Source of the DNA: Spirochaetota bacterium
Lineage (GTDB): Bacteria; Spirochaetota; UBA4802; JAFGJZ01
Direction of reading: 5' to 3'
Assembly: GCA_029554345.1 (NCBI GenBank)
Contig: JAKPJF010000070.1
Coordinates: 1 to 51,901, forward strand
Length of the DNA stretch: 51,901 bases
The position numbers were made by a program, and so were the translations under genes. Each line of letters starts with the position of its first letter. Within the stretch, counting starts at the first letter, position 1. Below, piece after piece: positions 46,883 through 51,901 of this stretch. The notes below the pieces were generated by a model. That model saw only the letters and a list, made by a program, of their open reading frames with translations. It searched no databases and had not been told where the DNA came from.

Positions 46883-47015
46883 TATATGAGATTTTCACGG
46901 TGAGGTTGAGGGTCAAGATATTTTTTGAGTTTCCGCACGGAGGCGGAAACATTGCCCGCGAGGACGACGAAGTCTTCAGCGGGAAAACGCAAACGTTACT
47001 TCATAGATTGGTGCG

Positions 47016-47088
47016 TGAAATCAATTTAAAATCGCATTCGAAGCGAATAGGACATTAGCTGAGAGTAAGAAATAATATATTGATTTCA
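47016..47088. repeat. 73-bp inverted-repeat-bounded element
   Basis: TGAAATCAAT (47016-47025) and its exact complement ATTGATTTCA (47079-47088) enclose 53 bp with an inner ATTCG/CGAAT hairpin. This is the layout of a small MITE or cruciform; no flanking target duplication was found. Confidence 0.5.
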
Positions 47089-47358
47089 ATAATAAATTCG
47101 CACGGTGCGGGCAAACCCCCAAAGGTGCTATTTCCCGAGGGTCGGGATACCACACAAGGCTTCTTGCGATGCCTTTTGTTGCAACCTCCTGTTGCATATT
47201 GAAGGTATCGCTTCGCAGGGATCGTTCCTGCTGCCTTATGAATCTGATTTCGCATGGATCATGCAAAAATATTCAAAGGGCGTTCCACGCCCTTTACCTG
47301 GTTTTCGCATGGTGTCATGCAAAACACAAAAGGTGCTCCGCACCTTTTAAATCCGTTT

Positions 47359-47393
47359 GTCCATTTCTTTTGCGTCGCCCAAAAGAAATGGAC
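47359..47393. repeat. 14-bp perfect stem-loop
   Basis: GTCCATTTCTTTTG (47359-47372), 7-nt loop, CAAAAGAAATGGAC (47380-47393). It is the longest palindrome of the region and is extended by two or three further pairs. The CTTTTG/CAAAAG core resembles terminators on both strands but lacks a T-run. Confidence 0.8.
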
Positions 47394-47494
47394 GAAAGAA
47401 AAGGGCGCCGCTGCGCGGTGCTTGTCGCGCGTATTCCTCACACCGGCTTTGCCGGATGCTGCGGACGCGCGAGTTGAGTCTGTCTGCGACAGAC

Positions 47495-47861
47495 GTTTTA
47501 AATTCTTTTTCAGTTCATTCGTCTTTTTCTGAAGCAATTAAATCACGGCAGAAAGTCCTCTCCCTGAAGCCTGCAACTTGATTAAAATAAATCATAATTC
47601 CGGGAGAGGGCACATGTAATTTTCTCTGGAGCAAGCGGTTTATTTTGGATTTGACATTATCAAAAAGATTTTCCATAAAGATTTTAGTGATCATTTAGCG
47701 GATATGATTTATGTAGTTCGACAGCGATAATTGCTGAGTCAGGCATGGAAACTACTGAGAGGATTTTGGAGAAAGAATCGATTTACTAAAACTAATCAGC
47801 TCACATCTGTAGTTATTCGAAACGATTGTAAACCAATTTTTATTATGTGTTTAATTAAAAC
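47495..47861. other. Non-coding AT-rich stretch before the dGTPase gene
   Basis: No gene is supported. A short open frame (47620-47730, plus strand) encodes 36 residues of plausible protein, with FDIIKKIFHKDFSDHLADMI, but has no start codon or ribosome-binding site and may be a gene remnant. The rest shows no terminator with a T-run for the leftward dGTPase gene, though AT-rich sequence at 47840-47861 could serve. Confidence 0.5.
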
Positions 47862-49259
47862 TTAAATAGGCTTAAAAATTGATTCTGGACTTTCAGAAAA
47901 CAATCTACAATAGAATTCAATTGCATACCTATCAGTCATACCTGCAACAAAATCGCCAATTGTTCTTTTTTTCATTGTTTCATCAGAATAATTATAAATT
48001 TCCTGATAATCTCTGGGTAATAATTTCGGGTTTTTACTTATTGCATCAAATATTTTTGACACTATATCGCGTCCTCTATGTTCAGATACTCTCAACATAG
48101 GAGAATTAATAATATTAACATAATTATACTGTTTCAGAACTTCTACCATCTTATATGTATTATCTTCAAAATATACTTTAGATTGTTCAGGATTTTTACT
48201 ATTAAAATCGAATATTATTCCATTCATAAAATTTTTAATTAATTTTGATGTGAATTGTGTCCGCAAGTAGCCATCTTGACACATCTCCTTTGATGCGATA
48301 TAGTACAATGAATTTGTTATTAAGCTTTGAGCATAAAGGTCTTTCTGAATTATTTGATCATTCATTCCCGTATTGAATGTATCTATAAAAAAATCTTCGA
48401 AAATGTAATACAACTGATCTTTTATTTCTTCATTACTAATTTCTATGTCTGCTGGTAAGCGCTTCTTAATCTCATCCACTATATAAGAATTAACACTTGT
48501 AAAATCTAATGGATTTACAAAACCTGCTTTTAAGGCATCCTCTAAGTCATATGTTGAATATGCGATATCGTCCGCAATATCCATTATTGAACATTCGATA
48601 GTTTTGAACTTCATTTCACAATAATTAGGCGATACTGCTTCTTTAATTTCTTTAACTAATTGATCATCAAAATAATAAAATCCTTTTTCTGGTTTTTCTC
48701 TTTTATTGTCTCCTGAAGATATTTTATTGTCATACTTCAAAATTGAGGCCAAACTTCTAAAAGTCAGATTCAATCCCCTTCTTAAGTCTTCATGCGTTTC
48801 AACATCTATGGGACTTATGCTATTTGATATTTTAACCTTTTTCTCAATTTTAGTTAATACTCTGAAAGTCTGCGCATTTCCTTCATAGCCACCCACATCT
48901 TTCAATAAATCATCCAAAGCATATTCTCCATTATGACCAAATGGAGGATGTCCCAAATCATGAGCCAATGCAGCAAACTCTACAAGATCAGTATCAATCT
49001 GCAGTTCTTTATTTATAATTTCTTCAGATTGATTTATTTTTAAAGCAATACTTTTACTAATTTGAGCCACTTCAAGGGAGTGAGTCAACCGATTTCGGAA
49101 AAAATCTGACTCAAAACCAGGGAATAGTTGAGTTTTACCATGAAGGCGTCTAAATGAGGAGGAATGGAGTAACCTTGAAAAGTCTCTTCGGAAATCAGAT
49201 CGATAATTTTCTATTTTTTCAAATTCAATTTGTCGTTTGTAATCGGAAGCCTTGTACAT
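47862..49259 (-). CDS. dgt: Deoxyguanosinetriphosphate triphosphohydrolase-like dNTPase (HD domain)
   Basis: 465 residues from the ATG at 49259 (a TTG two codons earlier is less likely). SAMHD1/dGTPase-type HD domain: RRDFSRLLHSSSFRRLHGKTQ, NRLTHSLEVAQ (His60), HDLGHPPFGHNGE (His100, Asp101) and ADDIAYSTYDLEDALKAG with the later metal Asp. It removes triphosphate from dNTPs to give nucleosides. Some homologues defend against phages by emptying the dNTP pool; the family also has housekeeping members. A 57-aa ORF with a strong ribosome-binding site ends 9 bp upstream. Composition is more AT-rich than the housekeeping genes to the left. Confidence 0.92.
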   Translation of the reverse strand: MYKASDYKRQIEFEKIENYRSDFRRDFSRLLHSSSFRRLHGKTQLFPGFESDFFRNRLTHSLEVAQISKSIALKINQSEEIINKELQIDTDLVEFAALAHDLGHPPFGHNGEYALDDLLKDVGGYEGNAQTFRVLTKIEKKVKISNSISPIDVETHEDLRRGLNLTFRSLASILKYDNKISSGDNKREKPEKGFYYFDDQLVKEIKEAVSPNYCEMKFKTIECSIMDIADDIAYSTYDLEDALKAGFVNPLDFTSVNSYIVDEIKKRLPADIEISNEEIKDQLYYIFEDFFIDTFNTGMNDQIIQKDLYAQSLITNSLYYIASKEMCQDGYLRTQFTSKLIKNFMNGIIFDFNSKNPEQSKVYFEDNTYKMVEVLKQYNYVNIINSPMLRVSEHRGRDIVSKIFDAISKNPKLLPRDYQEIYNYSDETMKKRTIGDFVAGMTDRYAIEFYCRLFSESPESIFKPI

Positions 49260-49268
49260 TCTCAAATA

Positions 49269-49442
49269 TTACTTGGTAGAATTATACCTGTTATTATTTT
49301 CCAAAGAATCATGCTTATTATCGATAGACCTTGCCTCACACCTAAGCTTCCCCTCATTTGCCATTTTTGTCATATGATTATTTGATTGGACGTGATTCAC
49401 AATATTTTTAAGGTAATTGTTCTCTGGTATTGAATGATTCAT
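49269..49442 (-). CDS. Small protein (57 aa) upstream of the dGTPase
   Basis: 57 residues, beginning MNHSIPENNYLKNIVNHVQS and ending RYNSTK. GGAGGT lies 5 nt before the ATG at 49442, an excellent ribosome-binding site, and its stop is 9 bp before the dGTPase ATG. It is polar and Asn/His-rich, no membrane segment or recognised motif. A small protein cotranscribed with a potentially toxic dNTPase could be a regulator, inhibitor or trigger; that is inference. It is too short for most annotation pipelines. Confidence 0.7.
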   Translation of the reverse strand: MNHSIPENNYLKNIVNHVQSNNHMTKMANEGKLRCEARSIDNKHDSLENNNRYNSTK

Positions 49443-49474
49443 AAAGACCTCCGTTTACTCGCAGTCGTAAACTA

Positions 49475-49502
49475 AAGATAATGTGTTATAATGACTTGTC
49501 AA
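49475..49502 (-). promoter_or_regulatory. Promoter for the small-protein/dGTPase operon
   Basis: On the minus strand TTGACA (49502-49497), 16-bp spacer, TATCTT (49480-49475). It predicts a start near 49467, 25 nt before the ATG, with GGAGGT in the leader. It drives away from the YaaC-like operon. Confidence 0.55.
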
Positions 49503-49970
49503 TTACTTAATCACTGATTCGGATAATAATCTAATTAAGTTGTTTATTTATTTATACAATATTGCAAAATGTGTTTGTGCAATATAAATTACTCCCCGAT
49601 TCTTAGTTCGCTTAGTCAATATTTGAATCACTCTTTTGCGCCTGCTTCATTCAGAATGATGTTCGATCTTCGGGACATAACTATCATAAGAGCACCGCAA
49701 TTTCTTACATTGAACAGTAACCAACCTTGATCTGGTCGCTCGAATTAATCTCTGTTTGAGTATCCAGATCATACGTCTGCTTTATGATTCCGAGCTATAA
49801 AATGAGTAAATTAACCAATGATAGTATCGACAAGTAAATTCCAGGTTCGATTTCATTCAGCCCAAAAAGTATTTTAAACCATAATTGATTTTATGTTGAC
49901 TTGTCATGCAATTGACTGACTAAAATACTTTCCGAAGAGTTGTGTGAAATTTTTATATTGAGGATATTTC
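49503..49970. other. Divergent intergenic region with inverted repeat
   Basis: About 470 bp without a supported gene between the two divergent units. It holds an 8-bp inverted repeat ATATTGCA/TGCAATAT (49559-49566 and 49578-49585, 11 bp between), a possible regulator site. Other landmarks are the promoter at 49896 and AT-rich runs. No terminator-like or RNA-like fold was recognised. Confidence 0.55.
49896..49926 (+). promoter_or_regulatory. Possible promoter for the YaaC-like gene
   Basis: TTGACT (49896-49901), a long 19-bp spacer and TAAAAT (49921-49926, 5 of 6). It predicts a start near 49933 and a leader of about 38 nt with GAGGAT 7 nt before the ATG. Confidence 0.42.
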
Positions 49971-51002
49971 ATGAATCCGGTGATAATAAACAATAAATCG
50001 GTTAAACCTCATAAAGCCTATAAAAATCCTTTAATGCAAAGCAGAAATGTTTTAACTAATAGCCCTTGGGAATTTGTATCGCTATGGCTAAAAAAAGAAA
50101 AAAAGCATCGTGCTTTATTCTTCTGGAATCAAGCCCATGAATTTTCAAATACATCTTCCAGTTTATCAATTCAATCATCTCCGTTATTACACTATTATTC
50201 TTTTATGAATATGGTCAAAGCGATGCTCGTATCAAAAAATATTAGTTTTGAAGAAATACACGGCATTAAATCACACAATTTGCGCGGTGTTTCAAAAAAA
50301 ATAACATTATGTAACGAAGGAGTGAAAATATTAAAAAAAGGAATTCTTTCATCACTCTCGTTATATCTTAATGAAACATCAATTGATGATATTTATAGCT
50401 TAGAAGAACTTCTATATAATATACCATGTATTCATAGAACATTTTGCTTAACCTATAAAACAGTTAAGGATCTTTTCATACCATTGACAAATTGTGAATA
50501 TCAATACGACAGTTCTAACAATGTTTACTGTGTTGCAAAAGTGACATCAGAATTCGTTGATAATAAACTAAGTAGTATTTTACCAGAATCATTTGAAATG
50601 ATAAATACAGATGGAACCATTAGATCTATTCCCTCTATTTCTATTTCAAATCCAAATAATATTTCTTTATCCGATGTTAATCAGATTTCAGATTTAAATA
50701 CTATACTCCGAAAAGATTTGCAATATATTAATGGAGCAACAGCTTTATGGTATTTAAAATGCAACAGATGCCATCCGAAAAGAATCGACAGATATCCATT
50801 AACCATTATGCTTGCAGTCATGCATCGGCTAAGTGAATTATGCAGATATAAACCTATTGAACTCTCTGCTTTTTTGGAAGGACAAAAAAATTGGCTTATC
50901 AGTGAATTTATAAATATGACATCAAAACAGTTTCTCGATGAAATCGCTAGTGAGATTACGGGCCATCAATTTTTAATTCCTAATATTAGGCAGGCATCTT
51001 AA
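49971..51002 (+). CDS. YaaC-like protein
   Basis: 343 residues. HYYSFMNMVKAMLVSKNISF with the following HGI, the later LEELLYNIPCIHRTF, and the C-terminal SELCRYKPIELSAF and WLISEFINMTSKQFLDEI match, in my reading, the YaaC family, named for a Bacillus subtilis protein of unknown function encoded next to guaB. It is mostly helical, with no signal or membrane segment. It is two bases ahead of a nucleoside deoxyribosyltransferase-fold gene, so they are coupled. Exact function unknown; YaaC-like proteins also turn up in accessory islands. Confidence 0.62.
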   Translation: MNPVIINNKSVKPHKAYKNPLMQSRNVLTNSPWEFVSLWLKKEKKHRALFFWNQAHEFSNTSSSLSIQSSPLLHYYSFMNMVKAMLVSKNISFEEIHGIKSHNLRGVSKKITLCNEGVKILKKGILSSLSLYLNETSIDDIYSLEELLYNIPCIHRTFCLTYKTVKDLFIPLTNCEYQYDSSNNVYCVAKVTSEFVDNKLSSILPESFEMINTDGTIRSIPSISISNPNNISLSDVNQISDLNTILRKDLQYINGATALWYLKCNRCHPKRIDRYPLTIMLAVMHRLSELCRYKPIELSAFLEGQKNWLISEFINMTSKQFLDEIASEITGHQFLIPNIRQAS

Positions 51003-51004
51003 AA

Positions 51005-51529
51005 ATGTGCCTAAATAATCAATTATATATTGCAAGTGCCCTGACCCATGTCCCTAGAGAGTTATTTGACAAATACTCATCATTTATACATGATTTGGCA
51101 ACAGACATCGAAGAAAAATATGCCTGCAATGTCAAATACGCATTAAAACACAGCGATCCTCAATTAGCAAGTCTGCCAATTGAAACTAGACCAAATGCAT
51201 GTTATATTTGGGATCGAAAAATGGTCGAAGATTCTTGTTTAATAATCGCAGAAGCTAGTTTTCCCTCTATCGGGCTGGGTATCGAATTGCAAATTGCACA
51301 AACACTGAATATACCTATTATATTGTTATTTAACAAATCATTAAATCAGGCAAATCCTGTTGATTATTTTAATCCTGATGGCTCTCATCATTCATTGCAA
51401 ATTGGTGAAGGATATATCTCTTATATGGCACTTGGTCTACCTAACGTAAAATCAATCATCTCTCATAACTACGAGACAATACATATCATGAATCAATTAA
51501 TCAATTTCAACTTACAAATAAAATGTTAA
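51005..51529 (+). CDS. Nucleoside 2-deoxyribosyltransferase-like protein
   Basis: 174 residues. A Rossmann-like fold of the NDT family: LYIASALTH at the N terminus, then DSCLIIAEASFPSIGLGIELQIA (72-98), where PSIGLGIEL is the family signature and Glu94 the likely nucleophile. IPIILLFNKS is the next strand. NDT enzymes cut the N-glycosidic bond of deoxynucleosides or swap the base; related folds occur in NAD-degrading and defence proteins, so the substrate could be a nucleotide. Its ATG is 2 bp after the YaaC-like stop, with no separate ribosome-binding site, so it is translationally coupled. Confidence 0.75.
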   Translation: MCLNNQLYIASALTHVPRELFDKYSSFIHDLATDIEEKYACNVKYALKHSDPQLASLPIETRPNACYIWDRKMVEDSCLIIAEASFPSIGLGIELQIAQTLNIPIILLFNKSLNQANPVDYFNPDGSHHSLQIGEGYISYMALGLPNVKSIISHNYETIHIMNQLINFNLQIKC

Positions 51530-51774
51530 ATAACATAAGAACTGCACATAACGAATCTACCGAATAGAGGGCATCACCTCTTTGTCATCCTCTTCCTTCC
51601 ACCGTGTTCCTGCTCCCGTCTTTTCACAGCACAATCAAGCTATGTTTCCATTCTCCGCTAAACAATTAATATTCAATTACAATCTCATGACCGTGAAGAA
51701 CCTGCCCGCGTGCTCACAATAAAAAACGAATGATTGTAAAAACCTTCAAACGTCGCGCACAGCGCGACACCACT
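51530..51774. other. Non-coding stretch with hairpin beside the intron
   Basis: About 245 bp without a supported gene. At 51752-51768 GTCGCGC (51752-51758) and GCGCGAC (51762-51768) form a 7-bp perfect hairpin with a 3-nt loop, in the same style as the hairpins at 47275-47494. On the minus strand it is followed by GTTTGAAGGTTTTT, so it could act as a terminator. A weak GAGG/CCTC hairpin occurs near 51567. Confidence 0.55.
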
Positions 51775-51901
51775 GTTGAGGTAGAGACAGTCATTACTGA
51801 CTGCCCCCCTCTCAGAACCGTACGTGCCCTATTAAGGCATACGGCTCCCGATAATGCTTCCGGTTAAATGTCATTTTACATTCACATAATCAGGTAATGC
51901 A
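51775..51901 (-). mobile_element. Group II intron, 3' end (domains V and VI)
   Basis: On the minus strand, 51847-51815 reads as a 33-nt domain V: GAGCCGTATG and CACGTACGGTTC pair with the usual AGC triad and G-U pairs. It is followed by domain VI (51813-51778), whose stem GAGG...CAGTCA / TGACTG...CCTC has a single bulged A at 51782, 7 nt from the predicted 3' end (AAC at 51777-51775), as expected for the branch point. The intron is read leftward; its body and any reverse transcriptase lie beyond the window. A stop codon at 51873-51871 could end that reading frame. It abuts the hairpin at 51752-51768. Confidence 0.88.

Follow-up and report, generated by a model that had tools for sequence, protein, structure and literature searches.

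At one end of contig JAKPJF010000070.1 of a Spirochaetota bacterium (assembly GCA_029554345.1), two divergent gene pairs occupy the final 4 kb: a 57-amino-acid (57-aa) protein with a dGTPase on one side, and a YaaC-like protein with a protein of the nucleoside 2-deoxyribosyltransferase (NDT) fold on the other. The window analysed here is this complete contig (51,901 nucleotides (nt); C54 among the 214 contigs of the 3.03-Mb genome). The arrangement raises the question of whether the four genes act together against phages, as a first-pass annotation of the sequence had suggested, or belong to separate units. We consider it probable that they are two independent, horizontally acquired anti-phage modules that sit side by side, in opposite orientation, at a site for accessory genes.

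Two units at one divergent locus

The four open reading frames (ORFs) lie where the first-pass annotation had placed them. On the minus strand are the dGTPase (that is, an HD-domain dGTP triphosphohydrolase of 465 aa from a mobile-element clade; 47862–49259, ATG at 49259) and the 57-aa ORF (49269–49442); on the plus strand follow, after a divergent intergenic region of 528 bp (49443–49970), the YaaC-like protein (PF14175; 343 aa; 49971–51002) and, 2 nt further on, the NDT-like protein, a predicted nucleotide N-glycosidase of the NDT/DNPH1 fold (174 aa; 51005–51529). If the four genes were a single defence system aimed at nucleotides, with one promoter region serving both directions, the dGTPase would lower the deoxynucleoside triphosphates (dNTPs), the NDT-like protein would clear the products, and YaaC and the 57-aa protein would act as regulators. 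The layout fits this proposal, as do the AT-richness of both units within a single accessory segment (G+C of 0.30–0.33 in the four genes versus 0.41 over positions 1–46880, a difference that had been noted before), a 10-mer that recurs unchanged before each unit and the presence of both YaaC–NDT and a dGTPase on some P1-like plasmids.

Linkage across genomes speaks against it. No close dGTPase was found in the flanks of any pair locus examined outside Escherichia coli (up to 10 kb, some contigs being shorter), and the eight whole genomes with the pair contain no dGTPase of the window's clade (best match 193 bits, versus 805 for the window's own enzyme). The dGTPase of the P1-like plasmids is of a different clade, resembling (E = 9e-159 to PDB 9P8W) the SpdGTPase of Shewanella putrefaciens CN-32, which is reported to be anti-phage (PMC12265719). 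It lies at a site separate from the pair, and the two reassort: at least 13 plasmids carry both; at least 34 E. coli genomes have the pair without this dGTPase, the totals being 106 for the pair and 72 for the enzyme; and in NZ_CP027133 the dGTPase is present and a RelA protein takes the place of the pair in the slot between mat and lxc. The 10-mer, TGACTTGTCA (49492–49501 and 49897–49906, with no other exact copy in the window), was chosen post hoc and with one mismatch allowed is no commoner than in shuffled sequence; we rejected it as a shared operator, and as an element common to both units it is at most a hint. A promoter and terminator scan gave no clear excess over shuffled sequence, and no RNA structure was found upstream of YaaC (z = −1.0). 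On linkage we reject the joint four-gene system, an idea already mostly refuted, and give it next to no credence. What the evidence supports is the caveat that the first-pass annotation itself had attached, namely that two independent units could look alike; its picture of mobile, nucleotide-directed and probably anti-phage genes holds for each unit separately and fails for the four as one system.

A widespread YaaC–NDT pair

The YaaC-like protein matches PF14175 over almost the whole profile (positions 28–307 of 307; E = 7e-46; 157 bits versus a gathering threshold of 27), a family for which we know of no established function. In relatives, YaaC and NDT are adjacent and share about 41–50% (YaaC) and 41–53% (NDT) identity with the window's proteins; the pair occurs in E. 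coli phage-plasmids, Bradyrhizobium, Sphingomonas, Methylobacterium, Paraburkholderia, Shinella, Rhizobium, Rubrivivax, Leisingera, one Cyclobacteriaceae genome and others, and thus covers Bacteroidota and the alpha-, beta- and gammaproteobacteria. At every examined locus that was long enough and encoded a YaaC at least 41% identical, NDT lay directly downstream; the tight coupling of the two genes that had been read from the window alone is conserved. YaaC had no match in sequenced phage records at E ≤ 1e-3, and neither YaaC nor NDT matched PADLOC-DB 2.0. No described gene set containing YaaC–NDT was found, nor was any report on YaaC in phage defence in the open literature, although newer or subscription literature may differ. 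Some yaaC genes stand without NDT, both in the window's own phylum and on Acinetobacter, Priestia and Methylobacterium plasmids, and their products may work singly or with a different partner.

The NDT-like protein had no Pfam or NCBIfam match at E ≤ 1, and its fold, as previously proposed, was recognized from structure. Its AlphaFold2 model (predicted local distance difference test score (pLDDT) of 87) matched human DNPH1, deoxyribosyltransferases and the CMP N-glycosidase BcmB in Foldseek (probability 1.00; template modelling score on the target up to 0.79). A 15-row alignment, placed against Rcl/DNPH1, has invariant Y8, D70, S88, G90, G92 and E94, including the S-x-G-x-G-x-E motif. The window protein thus has the fold of DNPH1/Rcl, the nucleoside 2'-deoxyribosyltransferases and BcmB and their Asp/Glu core with the motif AExSxPSxGxGxELxxA, but it is only about 13–19% identical to them, belongs to no Pfam family, carries the additional invariant motifs LTHVP, SDP and CYxWD, and lies directly downstream of YaaC. 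We predict from the model that it is a nucleotide N-glycosidase. An NDT-fold protein also serves as a defence effector in Retron-Eco1/Ec86; here the partner is YaaC, no retron reverse transcriptase is encoded by or between the four genes, and the sole Rfam hit within 46900–51901 was to a group II intron, not to a retron RNA. For YaaC, the AlphaFold2 model (pLDDT 90) had no fold match in the PDB or in the BFVD viral library, and a sequence profile found no relative in the PDB.

A variable slot in P1-like phage-plasmids

The pair (at least 80% of it in one place) is present in 106 of 5,426 complete E. coli genomes (about 2%), where 109 of its 112 places are on plasmids. In the P1-like plasmids examined it sits between mat and lxc. 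In P1 this interval is filled by the EcoP1I genes res and mod, in SJ46 by a RelA/SpoT-family gene that we identify as CapRel, judging by its family and the phage that carries it. The SJ46 CapRel has been shown to act against phages (PMC9712102). The E. coli YaaC–NDT occupies the slot of EcoP1I res–mod and CapRel, although proteins and mechanism are unrelated. Other occupants include SIR2, PIN, DUF2971, RelA, GNAT and EAL-domain proteins and insertion sequences (IS); the first four of these kinds are recognized by PADLOC. In the literature searched, we found no account of mat–lxc as a site where defence genes alternate. Alternating cargo was seen at the loci that we number L007, L009, L029–L036 and L076; those occupants that are as yet untested are defence candidates.

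Outside E. coli, 95 neighbours of pair loci, an uncontrolled list, were compared with PADLOC models. HamA and HamB (Hachiman) lie upstream of the pair at L016, and a C5-methylase and a helicase run in the same direction as the pair at L010; cyclases and effectors of cyclic-oligonucleotide-based antiphage signalling systems (CBASS), type I restriction subunits and a type IV restriction enzyme are among the neighbours, not mapped to a particular locus. At several further loci, none of the proteins tried matched PADLOC; a recognizable defence island thus does not surround the pair everywhere.

This company bears on two other explanations of the pair. The nearest solved relatives of the NDT-like protein, DNPH1 and the nucleoside deoxyribosyltransferases, would suit a metabolic or pool-sanitation unit, salvaging deoxynucleoside monophosphates or removing damaged ones (as DNPH1 does for hydroxymethyl-dUMP) as a fitness trait rather than a defence; this is unlikely in view of the patchy spread of the pair on phage-plasmids, plasmids and provirus-like contigs, its alternation with restriction and toxin genes in the P1 slot and its place next to Hachiman and methylase operons. 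Alternatively, the tight or overlapping two-gene layout, the mostly plasmid-borne state in E. coli and the toxin-like nature of other slot occupants recall a toxin–antitoxin-like or plasmid-stabilizing pair with a secondary anti-phage effect. YaaC is, however, larger than typical antitoxins and occurs solo in other lineages, and CapRel, a toxin-type occupant, is itself a defence system, which makes us regard that explanation as quite unlikely.

A dGTPase clade of mobile elements

The dGTPase has the HD and HD_assoc domains, matches the PADLOC dGTPase model (E = 3.8e-119) and exceeds the cut-off of the NCBIfam dGTP_triPase model. Its HD motif and H/E catalytic dyad are intact (H60, H100-D101, H109, E112 and D227 are invariant in the dGTPase alignment). 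Could it be an ordinary housekeeping dgt, with the 57-aa ORF arising by chance? dGTPases are widespread, short ORFs are common in AT-rich DNA, and the 57-aa protein has neither family nor homologue. Against this, the enzyme is the only one of its kind at 1e-60 among 393 genomes of the phylum, the other 392 having none; a separate dGTPase-family gene, 33% identical over part of the protein, is present in the same genome on contig C154; and the 57-aa ORF has a strong Shine–Dalgarno sequence and stands 9 nt from the dGTPase. The nearest relatives (43–50% identical) are on Rhizobium and Roseomonas plasmids and on 13 prophage-sized IMG/VR contigs of 19–57 kb (L040–L052), which an alignment query found and a single-protein query did not. 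In a tree of 31 rows, the window enzyme and these alphaproteobacterial plasmid and prophage dGTPases form a 16-row group (support 100/99) apart from the P1-plasmid dGTPase; the long rows L074, L002, L054 and L064 are unreliable, and the exact place of the window enzyme inside the group is weakly supported (85/74). The phylum search and the tree therefore place the enzyme in an accessory, mobile-element setting, and we hold the housekeeping explanation to be very improbable. Two outcomes had been named beforehand as bearing on the joint system: branching of the dGTPase with housekeeping copies is not what the tree and the phylum search gave, and occurrence of the YaaC–NDT pair without it essentially is.

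Compared with the anti-phage dGTPases (SpdGTPase, PDB 9P8W; NF041026; PADLOC dGTPase), the window enzyme has the same HD-domain metal and catalytic residues and a similarly mobile, accessory distribution, but it falls below the NF041026 cut-off, forms a separate, well-supported clade and has a small ORF directly upstream. Another defence system, Clover, combines the dGTPase CloA with the nucleotidyltransferase CloB. The likeness to Clover lies in a dGTPase effector with a partner gene; the candidate partner here is the 57-aa ORF, no nucleotidyltransferase is among the four proteins (Pfam), and no CloB was seen beside the dGTPase, which is flanked by the 57-aa ORF, then YaaC, in one direction and by repeats in the other. 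The enzyme is also nearer to SpdGTPase (9p8w, 8e-51) than to the 9p8s–9p8v chains (about 1e-27), which we take to be CloA. The dGTPase is near a known kind and would extend the nucleotide-depletion defences by a separate prophage clade whose genes follow a small ORF.

That small gene starts behind GGAGGTCTTT, with the strong Shine–Dalgarno sequence GGAGGTCTTTATG. Coupling to the dGTPase, which the first-pass annotation had assumed, is plausible because the 57-aa ORF ends 9 nt ahead of the dGTPase ATG and the dGTPase has no good Shine–Dalgarno sequence of its own. The 57-aa protein had no Pfam match. Nearly all relatives with enough upstream sequence have an ORF of about 51–85 aa directly upstream of the dGTPase, at a spacing of 2–37 nt in three annotated plasmids; of the exceptions, L044 has no ORF of at least 30 aa in the stretch scanned and L043 has no upstream DNA. 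Two groups of these small proteins are similar internally, one (L040, L041, L049 and L050) through a common DPVYRTAVSELKTLR..STGKWSL-like stretch and the other (L037, L038, L039, L047 and L052) through a common N-terminal AAV..A-like start, which suggests that the upstream ORFs are real genes. In another clade of dGTPases from viral contigs (L063, L065, L068 and L069), the upstream ORF is 71–116 aa long and its sequence looks, by eye, like a winged helix; it is perhaps a second kind of small partner. The Rhizobium plasmid dGTPases adjoin genes for a 7-cyano-7-deazaguanine synthase and a PfkB kinase (L037, 4101–13239; L038, 401–7410), with multiubiquitin and ThiF genes also near the dGTPase in L037 only; both surroundings look like defence islands.

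Borders of the accessory segment

Repeats flank the segment on both sides, as had been described. To the left, at 46900–47640, the AT-rich segment is bordered by a mosaic of repeats dispersed throughout the genome, where 79 pieces match it, and to the right a short dispersed-repeat piece (51720–51774) matches repeats in the same genome. Beyond it comes a minus-strand group II intron, present by its 3' end (51775–51901; RF00029 match at 51775–51849), which the first-pass annotation had also recognized and which is cut by the contig end. The last 128 bases of the window are identical to positions 1669–1796 of contig C114, where the flanking DNA differs; the intron is therefore probably present in several copies and the cause of the assembly break. 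The mosaic repeat, in the window as on other contigs of the genome (L085–L092), separates housekeeping genes from AT-rich orphan genes, among which VapBC-like and MazF-like toxin–antitoxin genes and a TIR-like protein were recognized by eye, and it may flag places where accessory genes insert. An integron integrase was considered as the source of the repeats and rejected, with only sub-cut-off matches in the genome and equally in all 14 controls.

Proposed roles of the two units

We think it rather probable that YaaC–NDT is an anti-phage module of a kind not yet described. In the mechanism that we envision for it, the NDT-fold protein would cut the base from the sugar, most likely in (deoxy)nucleoside monophosphates or a related nucleotide, phage-modified or common, and YaaC, with its novel fold, would probably sense infection and/or gate the NDT-like protein. 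At the neighbouring unit, the dGTPase would hydrolyse dGTP (or dNTPs) and so starve phage replication, and the small, fast-evolving upstream protein would probably restrain it or switch it on.

Several points weigh against these proposals. What the analysis establishes is the gene content, the conserved pairing of YaaC with NDT, the mobile and defence surroundings, the intact catalytic residues and the NDT fold; defence activity, substrates and the roles of the 57-aa protein and YaaC are what we infer. More distant YaaC proteins (L005, L006, L099, L100 and L101) stand alone without NDT, so pairing with NDT is no general rule in the YaaC family. Nucleotide salvage and pool sanitation are further roles open to DNPH1-like enzymes. 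Because the mat–lxc slot also carries genes of unclear function (GNAT, EAL and IS1), position in it is not proof of defence. The dGTPase scores 359 bits with NF041026 (NCBIfam antiphage_dGTPase), below the curated cut-off of 400. Finally, hidden Markov models of the small prophage proteins (from the two groups or from all rows) score the 57-aa protein no better than its own shuffles, and we rejected it as their homologue; as it has no detectable similarity to the small ORFs of relatives, we call it their counterpart by position and size only.

On balance, we are evenly divided over the fuller proposal in which YaaC–NDT is a widespread two-gene anti-phage system, with YaaC as the sensor or regulator that controls a DNPH1-like N-glycosidase in the defence slot of P1, and the dGTPase clade is regulated by an upstream micro-protein. 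By linking a clade of YaaC proteins to a predicted nucleotide N-glycosidase and to the slot of EcoP1I and CapRel, the analysis would give this clade a concrete function, open to experiment in a laboratory host.

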